NCBI GenBank assembly: GCA_913049535.1
Contig: CAJWYF010000007.1
Location: 1-64,000 of the forward strand
DNA: 64,000 nucleotides
Reading direction: 5' to 3'
From: an uncultured Synechococcus sp.
GTDB taxonomy: Bacteria > Cyanobacteriota > Cyanobacteriia > PCC-6307 > Cyanobiaceae
In this document: one piece after another, positions 248-7,724 of the stretch
Layout of the letters: every line of letters starts with the position of its first letter
Numbering within the stretch: position 1 is the stretch's first letter
The notes under the pieces: generated by a model
What the model saw: only the letters and a program-made list of their open reading frames with translations
The model's database searches: none
Told to the model about the DNA's origin: nothing
Made by a program: the position numbers and the translations under genes

Positions 248-628
248 ATGATCGATCTCATCATCACCAGCATCGTGGTCGACCTCTCCGACCAGAAGCT
301 CTACGCCTACAACGGCCCGCAGCTGGTGCGCACCATTCCGGTGAGCTCCGGCAAGGCCTCCACCCCCACCCCGATCTTCAAGAGCAAGGTGGACTCCAAG
401 CACACCTCGGTGACGATGCGGGGCCGTGGCTACGTCGCCCCGGGGGTGCCCTGGGCCATGTGCGTCCCCGGCGGCATGATCTGCATGCATGGCGCCCCCT
501 GGCAGGAGGCCGCCGGCCAGCCCTACGGCGTGCCCCGCAGCCATGGCTGCGTGCGCATGCCCACGGTGCAGGCCAAGTGGCTGTTCAAGCGCACCAAAAA
601 AGGCACGCCTGTTGCGATTCAAGCCTGA
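248..628 (+). CDS. L,D-transpeptidase (YkuD family)
   Basis: Encodes about 126 residues from the ATG at 248, which is immediately before the YkuD fold (IVVDLSDQKLYAYNG). The catalytic signature SHGCVRMP is near the C terminus, with the nucleophilic Cys and the upstream His (MHGAP) both present. Such enzymes form 3-3 or lipoprotein cross-links in peptidoglycan in the periplasm. The reading frame is open back to a GTG at 116, but that extension looks neither like a signal peptide nor like conserved protein. Without it the protein has no visible export signal, which is odd for this family, so an upstream start cannot be excluded. The 3' end overlaps the convergent downstream gene by ten bases. 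Confidence 0.8.
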   Translation: MIDLIITSIVVDLSDQKLYAYNGPQLVRTIPVSSGKASTPTPIFKSKVDSKHTSVTMRGRGYVAPGVPWAMCVPGGMICMHGAPWQEAAGQPYGVPRSHGCVRMPTVQAKWLFKRTKKGTPVAIQA

Positions 629-1014
629 GGGCCTGGGGCCTCAGGGCCCTGCTGCCGCCGCCAGGCCAGCAGCCAGCTGACGGCCGTGGCCCGGCGCGTG
701 CGCCGCGGCACCAGCTGATCGATGGTGTAACCCCCGAACTTGAGCTCCTGCTTGAGCAGTTGCTTCAGGGCGGGGGGAATCGAGCGCGTCAGCCGCACGC
801 TGGCGGGCCGCTCGGCGATGAACTCCGGCGCCTCGGGGTAGGCCTCCCCCCACTCCGCTGGGGTCTGGGGCCCGGCACGCCACGGATCAGCCGGCGAGGC
901 ACCCGGCGCAGGGCCATAGCCCAACCGCTGCCAGATCAGCTCGCAGACCTCCCGGTCGCTGAGCTCGTCATCGAGCACTTGCCACAGCAGCGCATCGCTG
1001 ATGGTCTGGCTCAT
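619..1014 (-). CDS. DUF1823 family protein
   Basis: A 131-residue protein with the pattern of the cyanobacterial DUF1823 family: an acidic N-terminal helix (MSQTISDALLWQVLDDELSD), a central WGEAYPEAPEFIAERPASV segment, and a basic C-terminal part with KFGGYTIDQLVPRRTRRATA. No enzyme motif is visible and the family function is unknown. It starts 12 bases downstream of the end of the histidine phosphatase-like gene on the same strand, so the two may be co-transcribed. Family assignment is from memory of conserved cyanobacterial proteins. Confidence 0.75.
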   Translation of the reverse strand: MSQTISDALLWQVLDDELSDREVCELIWQRLGYGPAPGASPADPWRAGPQTPAEWGEAYPEAPEFIAERPASVRLTRSIPPALKQLLKQELKFGGYTIDQLVPRRTRRATAVSWLLAWRRQQGPEAPGPQA

Positions 1015-1026
1015 CGCCCCCTCAGC

Positions 1027-1635
1027 TCAAGGCAAGGCGACAACGGGCAGCGGCGAGTCGGCATTGATGTAGCAGCTCTGCTGGAACCACTCACTCTGGC
1101 GTGAGACGCTCACCTCAGGCAGGAAATTGCCGGGGCTGTAGCGCAGGCGGTACAGGCCACCAAAGTCATTGGCGGCAATCGCTGCCATGCCATCCCAACC
1201 CAGGGACTGGGCCAGCGCCGGCATGCGCCGGTGCTCCCAGAACAACACCAGGCGCTGGCCCTGGGCCCAGGGTGCCTGCAGCAATTTGGCGCCGTCGTAG
1301 GGCGTGCTGCCCGCTGAATCGGTGAACATGACGATGTTGATCCCCGTGGCCACCGCCAGCGGCACCGCGGACTGGTAGCTGCGGGCGTTCTTCTGGGTGT
1401 TGACCGTGAACATGTACGAACCGATCCGATCGATCGGCCCCAGGCAGGCCGGCAGCAGCCGGCCGATGGCGATGGCGCGGCGCAGGCCCTTGGGCGAGAG
1501 GTTGTAGCTCCGGCGCGGCACCTGCTTGTCGCCATGGCGCAGCAGGATCACCTCCTTGGGCTGGGCCAGCCCTGCTGCGGGCAGCAGCAGGGCCAACACA
1601 GCAGCAGCACCACAGCCGGCAGAGCGGGACCACAT
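1027..1635 (-). CDS. Exported histidine phosphatase-like protein
   Basis: About 202 residues. The start ATG at 1635 gives a signal peptide (MWSRSAGCGAAAVLALLLPAAGLAQ). The mature part opens with EVILLRHGDK, the RHG phosphohistidine motif of the phosphoglycerate mutase/acid phosphatase superfamily. A second basic motif (NARSYQSAVPLA) and a late His (FWEHRRMP) fit the usual catalytic pocket. The protein is probably periplasmic; the substrate cannot be told. The open frame continues upstream into the divergent dus region, but that part has no protein-like character. Confidence 0.7.
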   Translation of the reverse strand: MWSRSAGCGAAAVLALLLPAAGLAQPKEVILLRHGDKQVPRRSYNLSPKGLRRAIAIGRLLPACLGPIDRIGSYMFTVNTQKNARSYQSAVPLAVATGINIVMFTDSAGSTPYDGAKLLQAPWAQGQRLVLFWEHRRMPALAQSLGWDGMAAIAANDFGGLYRLRYSPGNFLPEVSVSRQSEWFQQSCYINADSPLPVVALP

Positions 1636-1699
1636 CCGGTAGGCAGGCGCAGAGCCCTCAAGCTGCAGAGCGCCGGTTAAGGCCGAGCACAATGGACCT

Positions 1700-2707
1700 A
1701 TGGCCAGCGATCCACTGGAACTGCCGGGGCGGGGCTGCCCCCGACGCCTGCACTGCCGCGTGCTGCAATCACCGCTGGCGGGGGTGTCCGATCGCATCTT
1801 CCGCGCTTTGGTGCGGCGCTGGAGCGAGCAGGCGCTGCTGTTCACCGAAATGGTCAATGCCACCAGCCTGGAGCTGGGCCACGGCCGCGCCAAGGTGGAG
1901 GAACTGGGCCAGGAGACTGGGCCGATCGCTGTGCAGCTGTTTGACCATCGCCCCATGGCCATGGCGGAGGCGGCCCGGCGTGCGGAAGCCGCTGGTGCCT
2001 ATTGGATCGACATCAACATGGGATGTCCGGTCAAGAAGATCGCCAAAAAAGGGGGCGGCAGTGGTCTGATCCGCGATCCCCAGCTGGCCACGCGCATCAT
2101 CAAGGCCGTGACCGCTGCGGTGCAGGTGCCTGTGACGGTCAAGACGCGCCTTGGCTGGTGCGGCAGCGATGCCGATCCGCTCAGCTGGTGTTTGCAGTTG
2201 CAGGATGCCGGCGCCCAGCTGCTGACGCTCCACGGCCGCACGCGCGAGCAGGGCTTCAAGGGATCGGCCGACTGGGGCGCGATCGCGGCGGTCAAGCAGG
2301 CCCTGACCATCCCGGTGATCGCCAATGGCGACATCAACAGCCCCGATGACGCCCGCCGCTGCCTGGAGCAGACCGGCGCCGACGGGGTGATGGTGGGCCG
2401 CGGCAGCATGGGGGCCCCCTGGCTGGTGGGGCAGATCGATGCGTCCTTCAAGGGCCAGCCCATACCGCCCACACCGGGGCCGCTGGAGCGGCTGCTGCTG
2501 GCCCGTGAGCAGTTGCTGGCCCTGGTGGAGGCCCGCGGTGATCACGGCCTGCTGATCGCCCGCAAACACATGGGCTGGACCTGCACCGGCTTTCCCGGTG
2601 CTCCGCAGCTGCGGCAGCAGTTGATGCGCGCCCCCACCCCAGAAGCCGCCGTGGAGCTGCTCAACGCTGCAGCTGCATCAGTTGCAACTGCAGCCGCGGC
2701 TTGCTGA
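1700..2707 (+). CDS. dus: tRNA-dihydrouridine synthase (DusB-like)
   Basis: A 335-residue FMN enzyme that reduces uridines in the tRNA D-loop. The TIM barrel begins at LQSPLAGVSDRIFRALVRRW. The active-site Cys is in DINMGCPVKKIAKKGGGSGL, followed by the FMN-binding stretches VTVKTRLGW, LTLHGRTREQG, VIANGDI and VMVGRGSMGAPW. The residues before VLQSPLAGV look extra, so the true start may be slightly downstream. The Ala-rich C terminus overlaps the end of the convergent small gene by 47 bases. Confidence 0.9.
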   Translation: MASDPLELPGRGCPRRLHCRVLQSPLAGVSDRIFRALVRRWSEQALLFTEMVNATSLELGHGRAKVEELGQETGPIAVQLFDHRPMAMAEAARRAEAAGAYWIDINMGCPVKKIAKKGGGSGLIRDPQLATRIIKAVTAAVQVPVTVKTRLGWCGSDADPLSWCLQLQDAGAQLLTLHGRTREQGFKGSADWGAIAAVKQALTIPVIANGDINSPDDARRCLEQTGADGVMVGRGSMGAPWLVGQIDASFKGQPIPPTPGPLERLLLAREQLLALVEARGDHGLLIARKHMGWTCTGFPGAPQLRQQLMRAPTPEAAVELLNAAAASVATAAAAC

Positions 2708-4389: not shown

Positions 4390-5115
4390 TCAATGACTCA
4401 ACAGCGGCAGCCCGCCTGGGGGCGGCTGCAGCAACGCTCGCCGCTCCGCTGCCACCTGGCGGCGGAAGGCCCGCCATTGGGGGGAAGCAACGATGTCCCG
4501 GCTGATGGCGCGGGCGAGGCGCTCGCTGGCGAGCACATCACTGGGGTAGTGCACCTGGCAGTAGGCGCGGGCATAGCCGCCCTGCAGCCCCAGCGCGAGC
4601 AGGCGTTGACGGCGCTGGGGCAGCAGATCAGCCAGCAACAGGCCAGCGGCGGCATACCAAGTGGAATGCCCACTGGGGAAGGAAAAGCTGGTCTCAAGCG
4701 GCAGACAGGGCTTGAGATCCTTGTGACTCACGAACGGCCGGGGCCGTTGGAAGCGATTCTTCAACACATTTTTGACCCGGTCCACTTCCTTGAGAAAGAA
4801 CGGCAGGCCCTTGGCCAGGGTCGGGGCCGCCTTGGCCAGGTTCGCGCCGATGGCGGTGTCAAACACGCCGACATCCCGGTTGAGGAAGCCCCAGGCATGC
4901 TCGACCGCCTGGGGGTATCGGGTGCGCTGATTCCAGCGCAGGATGGCCAGATCCTTGGCCTCCTCGGCACTGCCGGCAGCGGGGGGCTGGCCGACAACGG
5001 CGCTGTAAGCCTCGGCGTTGAGCGCCAGACCCGCGGCGGGGTTGGCCCGCAGCGCTGACCAGGGCGCCGCCACGAGGCTCAGCCCGGCAGCGATCAGGTG
5101 GATGCTCCGGTTCAT
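4390..5115 (-). CDS. Exported class A acid phosphatase (PAP2 superfamily)
   Basis: About 241 residues from the ATG at 5115, which gives a signal peptide (MNRSIHLIAAGLSLVAAPWSALRA). All three PAP2 phosphatase motifs are present: KNRFQRPRPF, FSFPSGHSTWYAAAG, and GYARAYCQVHYPSDV. The order and secretion signal fit bacterial class A non-specific acid phosphatases such as PhoC, which strip phosphate from organic esters in the periplasm. It is divergent from a PstS-like lipoprotein gene, a suggestive phosphate-related neighbourhood, but no Pho box was identified. Confidence 0.82.
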   Translation of the reverse strand: MNRSIHLIAAGLSLVAAPWSALRANPAAGLALNAEAYSAVVGQPPAAGSAEEAKDLAILRWNQRTRYPQAVEHAWGFLNRDVGVFDTAIGANLAKAAPTLAKGLPFFLKEVDRVKNVLKNRFQRPRPFVSHKDLKPCLPLETSFSFPSGHSTWYAAAGLLLADLLPQRRQRLLALGLQGGYARAYCQVHYPSDVLASERLARAISRDIVASPQWRAFRRQVAAERRALLQPPPGGLPLLSH

Positions 5116-5235
5116 GGGCAGACACGAGACCCATCCACCCTGGGCCAGGCTGATTAACAACAAAAAAACGCCAGAGCCTGGCCTTAAGTGAACGTTAATG
5201 CCAAAGGTTCAAGCTTTTTTTGCTGGGGAGTCTGC

Positions 5236-6378
5236 ATGGGCAGAGTGTTGCTGTTGGCCGTTCTTTGCTGCCTGGGAGTCTGTGGCTGCAGAAGCGATGT
5301 CCAAAGCAGCGGACCCTTCAGCACCGCAGCAAGGGTGAACCCCGATCTTGACAGCAAAGCCATTCAGCGCAGTTATCGCGATGGCTTTTCCAATGACTTC
5401 ATTGCACTCTCAGGCTCACAGCTGAATCAGGATCTGATCATCAGTTCGTTTGAACAACTCATGACCCTGCAACGGGCCTCCCTGCCGATTGAAGAACTGC
5501 GCGATAACTTCACATCCCTGGGATATTTTCAGCAAGCCAGCAGTGCCGGTATCGCCGGCATCTGCAACGCCAAGCGCAACTTTGTTGGACTTGTCGCTGC
5601 CCTGACGAAACAGCAAGCCCAGCAGCATGGACAGCCAACAGGTGAGCTGCCATGCGGCAACGGGCAGCGCATCAGTGCCCTCCCTCTAGGACACGATGCC
5701 AAGATCTTCGCGGTTTCAGCAGCCAACACATTCATCAACGCGATCAATCTTGCGCAATTGGCCAAAGCCTCTCAAGCGGCCAATGGCAACCTGCACTGGA
5801 GCGATCTCAATCCCGACTGGCCTCAACGGCGAGTGCAATGGATCGTCCCCGCACAAATGCCCTTCAGCGCACACCTGCAGGAGCTGGGAATCCAACTGCC
5901 TGCACAGTTCACGATCGCAGCCGATTACACAAAGATTTTTGAGGCTGCTGCATCCAACCCTGACGCCCTGATCTTCAGCTTTTACAGCCCGTCGCTGAAT
6001 GCCAGGTTGCAGGGCAACAACTTCAAACTGTTGGCCGCTCAAGCCAGTGCGCAAGAGCCTGCCATCAACCCAACTCCGCAGACCATCTCTTCGACCTACC
6101 CGGAGAGCCTGGAGACTGACATTGTTCTCTACATCAACGAAAGCAAGCCCAATGCCTGCATTGCCGTCTCATTGGCTGACTATTTGCTCTCGTTCAATCA
6201 ACGACTCCTGCTTGAGAACAACATGGCGCCGCTCGATCCAGATCAACGGCAACAGGCCCTCAAGAAATTAGATCAGCTTCTGGCACGAACAGCCTCCTCG
6301 ACCACACCATTTTGTCTTGATGATTTGCGCCGATCAGCGGAGTACCAAAACGCACGCTTGAGCCGCACTGCCCCATGA
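5236..6378 (+). CDS. PstS-like periplasmic binding lipoprotein
   Basis: About 380 residues from the ATG at 5236. It opens with a lipoprotein signal (MGRVLLLAVLCCLGVCGC) whose lipidated Cys is probably residue 18. The mature part resembles type 2 substrate-binding proteins of the PstS class. The clearest likeness is NLHWSDLNPDWPQRRVQWIV, which parallels the WSDINP-WP segment of phosphate-binding proteins, followed by an ADYTKIFEAAASNPDALIFS region and late hinge-like strands. No ABC permease or ATPase follows. Instead its stop overlaps by four bases the start of a ligand-gated ion channel homologue, implying translational coupling. The ligand is unknown. Confidence 0.65.
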   Translation: MGRVLLLAVLCCLGVCGCRSDVQSSGPFSTAARVNPDLDSKAIQRSYRDGFSNDFIALSGSQLNQDLIISSFEQLMTLQRASLPIEELRDNFTSLGYFQQASSAGIAGICNAKRNFVGLVAALTKQQAQQHGQPTGELPCGNGQRISALPLGHDAKIFAVSAANTFINAINLAQLAKASQAANGNLHWSDLNPDWPQRRVQWIVPAQMPFSAHLQELGIQLPAQFTIAADYTKIFEAAASNPDALIFSFYSPSLNARLQGNNFKLLAAQASAQEPAINPTPQTISSTYPESLETDIVLYINESKPNACIAVSLADYLLSFNQRLLLENNMAPLDPDQRQQALKKLDQLLARTASSTTPFCLDDLRRSAEYQNARLSRTAP

Positions 6379-7724
6379 CACGCCTCCCTTTCCCATGGCG
6401 GCGGCAGCGCCTCGGCCGGGTGTTGGCCCTGGCCAGCCTCATGATCACCCTGATCGCCGGGAGCTTCGGCCTGGGCCATCAAGGCCCCGGCACTGCGGCG
6501 AGAGCTGACGGCAGGGAAGCGCTGGAGATCATTCGAACCATCGATCCATCCTGCGAGGACTACGGGCGTTGCGATGCATCCTTCCAGTCGAGCTATGGCG
6601 GCATCACGATCCGTTCACTCAACGAAAGCCTGAATGACCCCGATGTTTTCACAGTCAGCGGAAACATCACATTCACCTGGAATCCTGCCGCCTACCCCGG
6701 CTGGAGCCCGCAACAGCTCTCGATTGCCTGCCGGACCAAAGACTGCGACTTCCCCGGCTGGAGCCTGGTCCAAAGCTTCAACAAAGACCACGCTCGGATC
6801 TGGTCAGCCAACTTCAATGTGGAAGCCAAAGAAACCACTTCACTGGCGTACTACCCCTTTGATCAACACTGGGTCCACCTGAAACTGGTCAGCATGGATG
6901 ACCAGTCTCAGCAGTTTCTGGATTATCTCAATGTCGCAAGTTTTGATATTGATATCTCCCAACGGGTCCTCAATGGCGAGAGCAGCAACTTCTACATCAA
7001 CTACGGAACGATCAGCTCAAGCATTGAGCCCCTGAACAATGACTTCGAAGCGACAAACACCAGCGAACCACTGCCTATGCCCAGCCGTATCAGCCGCGCA
7101 GGCAACCTCAGCACAGCTGATCAGTTCAGTGATAAGACACGGCTGCTGGATTCGTCGTCATTCATCGTGTCGCTGCAGATCGCCAGGCGAACACCTGCAG
7201 CCCTCTGGATGGTGATCATTCCCATGGGGCTGATCCTGCTAAACACCAACCTGGCGTTTCACTGGCGCGAAAACAGTCCCGCCAGCCGCTTTGGCTCATC
7301 AGGCCTCTTAACCGCAGTCAGCCTGTTCTTTGCATCCAGAGTGTTCCGCCCCGACGTGGACTACCTGGTGTTCACTGACATCTGGTTCCTGGTCACATTC
7401 ATCACCATCACCATCAACAATATCCTACTTATCTGGCTATTTCGTTTTTACAAACACCGCAAAGAGCTCAAGGCTCAAGGCCTGACGATCAAACCAGCAT
7501 TTTTCGCTGAAAACAGTCTCACCATCTGCTCAAGCCTCTTCATTACCTTGATCGTCGTGCTGTTGCTTATCACCGCTGCACGATTGTCTCAACCGCCTGA
7601 AATTCCATCAGCCTTTCTGGCTGGCAACTCTGGCTATGCCCCCATCGGAGCATCAGCAACCAAAGTGATGGATCGCGATTCTCTCTCCTCTGACCAGGGC
7701 GGCTTCCTCCCCTACAGGCCCTAG
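6375..7724 (+). CDS. Pentameric ligand-gated ion channel homologue (pLGIC, GLIC/ELIC type)
   Basis: A 449-residue membrane protein. A signal peptide (about residues 15-45) is followed by a beta-rich extracellular domain containing VSGNITFTWNP and YYPFDQHW (about 159-166), the prokaryotic version of the Cys-loop FPFD-Q motif. Four transmembrane helices follow: M1 about 274-296 with the conserved proline in MVIIPMGLILL, M2 about 304-324, M3 about 331-356 and M4 about 382-402. This topology and the M1 proline match GLIC. The canonical Cys-loop cysteines are absent, as in bacteria, but four other cysteines sit early in the ectodomain. Ion and agonist are unknown. The gene overlaps the upstream binding-lipoprotein gene (ATGA). 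Confidence 0.82.
   Translation: MTRLPFPWRRQRLGRVLALASLMITLIAGSFGLGHQGPGTAARADGREALEIIRTIDPSCEDYGRCDASFQSSYGGITIRSLNESLNDPDVFTVSGNITFTWNPAAYPGWSPQQLSIACRTKDCDFPGWSLVQSFNKDHARIWSANFNVEAKETTSLAYYPFDQHWVHLKLVSMDDQSQQFLDYLNVASFDIDISQRVLNGESSNFYINYGTISSSIEPLNNDFEATNTSEPLPMPSRISRAGNLSTADQFSDKTRLLDSSSFIVSLQIARRTPAALWMVIIPMGLILLNTNLAFHWRENSPASRFGSSGLLTAVSLFFASRVFRPDVDYLVFTDIWFLVTFITITINNILLIWLFRFYKHRKELKAQGLTIKPAFFAENSLTICSSLFITLIVVLLLITAARLSQPPEIPSAFLAGNSGYAPIGASATKVMDRDSLSSDQGGFLPYRP

Follow-up and report, generated by a model that had tools for sequence, protein, structure and literature searches.

Bacterial pentameric ligand-gated ion channels (pLGICs) are relatives of the animal nicotinic, GABA-A and glycine receptors. 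Neither their biological role nor their natural stimuli are known, even in the case of GLIC (Jaiteh et al., PMC4795631). In a window of 64,000 nucleotides from an uncultured Synechococcus sp. (contig CAJWYF010000007.1, the whole stretch of DNA analysed here), the gene for a pLGIC subunit lies directly behind that for a lipoprotein, and this arrangement raises the question of whether such a channel can be switched by a separate periplasmic protein. The answer towards which we lean is that the two genes form one unit, consisting of a homopentameric channel and a periplasmic lipoprotein that docks on it and controls its opening. The question of what bacterial pLGICs do becomes narrower with a periplasmic partner that is strictly linked to the channel, and the lipoprotein and the tail of its channel are specific handles for biochemistry.

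Organization of the gene pair

The first gene (5236..6378, + strand) codes for a PstS/SphX-derived lipoprotein of 380 aa with the PBP-II fold, and the second (6375..7724, + strand) codes for a pLGIC subunit of 449 aa. As the original prediction had described, the two reading frames overlap by four bases, an ATGA (6375..6378, + strand) in which the TGA of the lipoprotein gene meets the ATG of the channel gene. This overlap is found in four of the six pairs known to us, and gaps of 3 and 9 nt separate the genes in the remaining two. The absence of an ABC transporter was also described correctly, as no such gene adjoins the pair, and no transporter genes, pstCAB included, were present in the flanks examined in the window and in the other pair-bearing genomes. 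Linkage and overlap speak for co-inheritance and coupled expression of the two genes, not for binding between their products.

Linkage and distribution

A search of 400 Cyanobiaceae genomes with the channel gave a match of any kind in 58 and close relatives, at 28-53% identity, in five, the window's own genome included. The five genomes hold six channels of this clade (one each in the window, G283, G294 and G398, and two in G217), and in all six cases the lipoprotein gene lies directly 5' of the channel gene on the same strand, with an overlap or a gap of at most 9 nt. The same picture emerged from the other direction, since a profile of the lipoprotein scored 446-586 bits in exactly the five channel-bearing genomes of the 400, compared with 86 bits or less for ordinary PstS/SphX proteins. 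A full-length lipoprotein or a clade channel on its own was found in none of the 400 family genomes. In one further genome (G240, L118:6927-8018) a frame-broken fragment of the lipoprotein gene scored 334 bits without a visible channel. This case is uninformative, as the sequence is broken and lies at the very end of its contig. If the two genes were distributed independently, the chance of the same five of 400 genomes carrying both would be about 1e-11, a value that serves as a guide only, because the genomes share ancestry and genes in linkage are inherited jointly.

The pair also behaves as a unit in duplication. G217 carries two copies in tandem (L056:8027-14093), each with both genes, and the copies are separated by a DUF1823 gene in the opposite orientation. 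Adjacency in six of six cases, confinement of both full-length clades to the same five genomes and duplication as a pair support the view that lipoprotein and channel belong together, and an outcome that had been named as refuting it, homologues found mostly apart, did not materialize. Pairwise identities of the two proteins correlate across pairs (r = 0.98), a correlation that is also expected from common descent alone, and the lipoprotein is the faster-diverging protein of the two.

It could still be argued that the two genes share no more than a transcript and that their products act separately. Only six pairs are known, all from one bacterial family in which history might hold them together, and ordinary cyanobacterial pLGICs function with no neighbor of this kind. 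However, the linkage survives flanks that are mostly unrelated between genomes and persists down to 23% identity of the lipoprotein and 31% of the channel, and neither full-length gene stands alone in the family, so that we regard mere co-transcription as very unlikely.

The clade was found in a small group of Cyanobium-type cyanobacteria, and even there it occurs patchily, for instance in 2 of the 42 genomes that represent the genus of G294. When the GTDB species collection was scanned with the channel, two records only were returned, both Cyanobium and both among the five, and a survey of 386 cyanobacterial genomes showed the clade nowhere except in the window's own genome. Searches of viral contigs and plasmids returned no relatives.

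The channel

The product of the second gene is, judging by its motifs, profile matches and model, a pLGIC subunit, and the landmarks attributed to it in the original prediction are present. The Pro-loop YPFDQHW (residues 160-166; 6852..6872, + strand) contains the F/YPxD signature as YPFD at residues 160-163, with P161, F162 and D163 invariant in six of six paired channels. The M1 helix (residues 274-297; 7194..7265, + strand) includes P283, invariant in the paired channels, and is followed by the pore-lining M2 helix (residues 303-324; 7281..7346, + strand). In the AF2 model an extracellular beta-sandwich precedes four transmembrane helices.

Sequence comparisons became clearer with the family than with the single protein. 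Neither the channel nor the lipoprotein sequence alone gave a Pfam family above cut-off, the NCBIfam ligand-gated channel model NF033918 LGIC_1 matched the channel with an E value of 3e-6, under its curated cut-off, and the channel alone matched DeCLIC with an E value of 0.012 (phmmer). The channel family profile reached GABA-A and glycine receptors at 2e-6 and weaker, with GABA-A alpha6 at 2e-6. With the model as query, all 50 of the matches listed by Foldseek were pLGICs (ELIC, GABA-A/RDL, GluCl and DeCLIC among them; best E value 1e-11), and the concern that the second protein might lack a pLGIC fold was not borne out by this model, weak as it is (4 sequences, mean pLDDT 50). Because this model and that of the lipoprotein are both of low confidence (pLDDT 50 and 54), we claim the fold only and no structural detail.

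Three features set the paired channels apart. In the first, beta9 and beta10 are separated by a long, variable insertion (residues 215-262; 7017..7160, + strand), modeled with low confidence and located at the position of loop C, which in pLGICs closes over the classical agonist site. The second is a conserved tail 3' of M4 (residues 405-449; 7587..7721, + strand), 44-51 aa long past M4 in paired channels versus 6 aa in 17 of 17 partnerless cyanobacterial pLGICs, from which it is absent. It follows the pattern PPxIPxxFLAGNS...G.S..V...EL, with P408, P411, S419, V431 and L437 invariant in all six. The C terminus of pLGICs is extracellular, which would place the tail in the periplasm, the same compartment as the lipoprotein. 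The paired channels form one clade, so that tail and partner may share a history without a mechanical link.

The third feature is PASRFG at the start of M2 (7278..7295, + strand), which aligns with the PAR motif of anion-selective receptors. The M1-M2 loop of the paired channels reads SPA(S/T)RFG and is invariant except for the S/T position, and its alignment with PAR(T)VFG of GABA-A (the glycine receptor also has PAR) carries a register ambiguity of one residue. A conserved arginine after Pro-Ala at the cytoplasmic mouth of M2 suggests, with moderate confidence, that the pore is anion-selective and the channel probably passes anions. It should be considered that the A-R motif is insufficient to predict selectivity in prokaryotes (Jaiteh et al., PMC4795631). 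A narrower form of our reading, in which the lipoprotein is the obligatory periplasmic subunit of a two-component ligand-gated anion channel, docks on the tail and gates the channel, is put forward here as a tentative possibility. It would make the lipoprotein the first binding protein with a demonstrated role in gating a pentameric channel.

The lipoprotein

The lipoprotein starts with a signal peptide and lipobox (..VCGC18; 5236..5289, + strand) that run up to the lipidated Cys18, a residue shared by all family members. Its PstS-like segment, already pointed out in the original prediction, is best kept in WSDLNPDWP (5797..5823, + strand). The resemblance is weak in the single sequence, which matched the PstS structure 4jwo with an E value of 0.03 (phmmer), and strong in the family, whose profile matched the same protein at 1e-7 (hmmsearch) and aligned with cyanobacterial PstS/SphX over 279 columns at 1e-19 (hhalign), indicating full-length homology. 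The best 19 Foldseek matches of the AF2 model were all phosphate-binding proteins (E value 8e-12), for a model of low confidence (mean pLDDT 54, from an alignment of 4 rows). By these profile and model comparisons the lipoprotein is a protein of the PBP-II fold, nearest to the PstS/SphX phosphate-binding proteins.

The segments GSST, SGTSGG, NASRP and DSGT make up the phosphate site of PstS, and we compared them between 45 PstS/SphX proteins of these cyanobacteria and the 6 lipoproteins. DSGT occurs in 44 of 45 PstS proteins and in none of the lipoproteins; in the window the site of its deletion reads PAQMPF (5848..5865, + strand). At the position of GSST(V) the window's protein has GSQLN (5413..5427, + strand), where Gly-Ser is retained and the remainder replaced, and in the family the motif has become GS(Q/E/T).., with the column residues replaced in six of six. 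SGTSGG is found in none of the six and NASRP is missing behind an insertion. What is retained relative to PstS/SphX is the Gly-Ser of the first motif, N164, L175, W188 and P196. The lipoprotein thus descends from PstS/SphX, but the loss of these motifs makes it unlikely that it binds phosphate in the manner of PstS.

Phosphate or an organophosphate had been proposed as the ligand, in part because of an acid phosphatase gene next door. The neighbor exists, as a gene for a PAP2-superfamily protein (4390-5163, - strand; E value 4e-16) adjoins the pair in the window, but no PAP2 homologue was found in the regions around the pair in other genomes. The host genome moreover has a pst locus on another contig, with pstB, pstA, pstC, a PstS and a SphX-like protein (names assigned by reading the sequences). 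With the site motifs gone and the PAP2 neighbor not conserved, phosphate as the ligand is unsupported and the stimulus is probably not phosphate. Pho-box regulation was likewise considered and rejected. A TTAA-N7-TTAA site, the sole one in the window, lies at 5184-5198, about 50 bases 5' of the lipoprotein start, and a similar site precedes one of the G217 copies. The other pairs have no such site in front of them and neither does the host pst locus, and the whole genome has 4 such sites versus 2 in a reversed control, so the site was not used as evidence.

The lost motifs bear on two further explanations. Given this loss, the lipoprotein could bind no ligand at all, and the strongest rival to our reading is an auxiliary subunit that has given up solute binding and serves only in the assembly, anchoring or stabilization of the channel, roles for which animal receptor channels have auxiliary subunits. 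Each of the four PstS/SphX motif segments has degenerated, in the case of DSGT by deletion of the loop, the lipoprotein evolves faster than the channel, and the extra tail of the paired channels could be the docking element of such a subunit. Yet the Gly-Ser of the first motif and a PBP-II framework (W188, P193, W195, P196 and N164) are common to all members, which suggests that the fold is maintained, perhaps for a new ligand, and we consider a ligandless subunit unlikely, though by no means negligible.

The other explanation draws on the PstS ancestry of the lipoprotein and the anion-channel-like M2 motif. The lipoprotein might concentrate an anion that the channel then admits, as a passive counterpart of an ABC importer. 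This uptake role, like mere co-transcription, is less likely than a ligandless subunit, and it is the least probable of the readings weighed here: the phosphate-site motifs of the lipoprotein are lost, the genome already owns a pst operon, and passive flow through a channel cannot bring anions into a cell whose interior is electrically negative.

Proposed mechanism

Control of the channel by the lipoprotein remains our preferred reading. The channel would be a ligand-gated homopentamer in the plasma membrane, and the lipoprotein its membrane-anchored periplasmic partner, a former PstS/SphX-type binding protein that has departed from phosphate transport. The partner most likely docks on the periplasmic face of the channel, through the extracellular domain, the long loop C and/or the C-terminal tail, and a change in its state would shift the balance between the closed and open channel. 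The trigger could be the binding of a solute other than phosphate, or the lipoprotein could act as a modulatory subunit, and the opened channel would probably pass anions. The two genes and their families, the strict linkage, the lost phosphate motifs and the tail peculiar to paired channels are observations; physical binding, control of gating, anion selectivity and the nature of the stimulus are inferred. If the reading is true, binding proteins switch ion channels as well as chemoreceptors and kinases.

Comparison with known systems

Bacterial pLGIC genes have been reported in conserved neighborhoods with stand-alone PBP-II genes, and other pLGICs as fusions to PBP-I or Cache domains, with cooperation in chemoreception proposed (Tasneem et al. 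2004, PMC549065, in the accessible text). The present pair is like those systems in having a pLGIC and a separate PBP-II gene in a conserved neighborhood or predicted operon. It differs in that the partner is a lipoprotein from the PstS/SphX line that lacks the phosphate motifs, and in the tail of the channel, whereas the PBP-II subfamily is not stated in the accessible text of that work. The general idea of a pLGIC working with a PBP-II protein is therefore not new, and the earlier assertion that no partner was known for such channels was too strong. What appears to be new, as far as our searches of the open-licence literature reach, is a PstS/SphX-derived partner without phosphate motifs, strict linkage in both directions, the tandem duplication and a tail limited to the clade.

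The paired channel shares with GLIC, ELIC and DeCLIC the extracellular Pro-loop beta domain and the four transmembrane helices, and ELIC and DeCLIC are among its closest folds in Foldseek. Identity to the three is about 15-18%, and unlike them it has a long loop C insertion, the PASRFG entry to M2 and a conserved tail past M4. DeCLIC carries a fused N-terminal domain (PMC12664993), whereas the partner here is a separate protein. The lipoprotein shares with PstS/SphX its PBP-II fold, secretion and a full-length profile match (E value 1e-19), but it adjoins a channel gene and lacks the four phosphate motifs and any accompanying pstCAB genes. Solute-binding proteins are known to dock on and activate chemoreceptors and sensor kinases (PMC9602780). 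A periplasmic binding protein acting on a membrane receptor is common to those systems and to ours, where the interaction is putative and the receptor belongs to the ion channels, which that work does not list.

Closer at hand, a commoner family of Cyanobiaceae pLGICs occurs in about 50 genomes without a partner (loci L002, L003, L005 and L098-L117). These channels belong to the same bacterial family and have a homologous transmembrane domain (E value 6e-5, hhalign), with about 24% identity to the paired channels in that domain only, and they have DAR at the entry of M2. No same-strand binding-protein gene was found beside them in 20 regions examined. In one genome (G028, L059:6602-10237) a partnerless pLGIC is followed by an ordinary PstS-type gene in convergent orientation, the sole binding-protein neighbor seen among these channels. 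In L002 and L005 the partnerless pLGIC adjoins a convergent gene resembling a UbiB/ABC1-type kinase, and in L113 and L115 two copies of this family lie a few kb apart.

Flanking genes

The flanks of the pairs, without an ABC transporter among them, are mostly unrelated between genomes. The window has PAP2 and miaE beside the pair, G283 an L,D-transpeptidase gene and one of the glycogen-synthase type, G217 a gamma-glutamyltranspeptidase and DUF1823, and G294 an aminotransferase gene together with a PDZ-protein/gcpE pair. Some memory of the locus is visible, as the cupin and tetrapyrrole methylase genes of the window recur a few kb upstream in G398, and homologues of genes at window positions 619-2707 occur in G217. 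In L057 (3696-13279) a PDZ-protease-like gene followed by gcpE is present in two copies, which enclose the pair and an aminotransferase gene. One of the protease copies is short (248 vs 448 aa), and the region looks as if it had been duplicated around an insertion.
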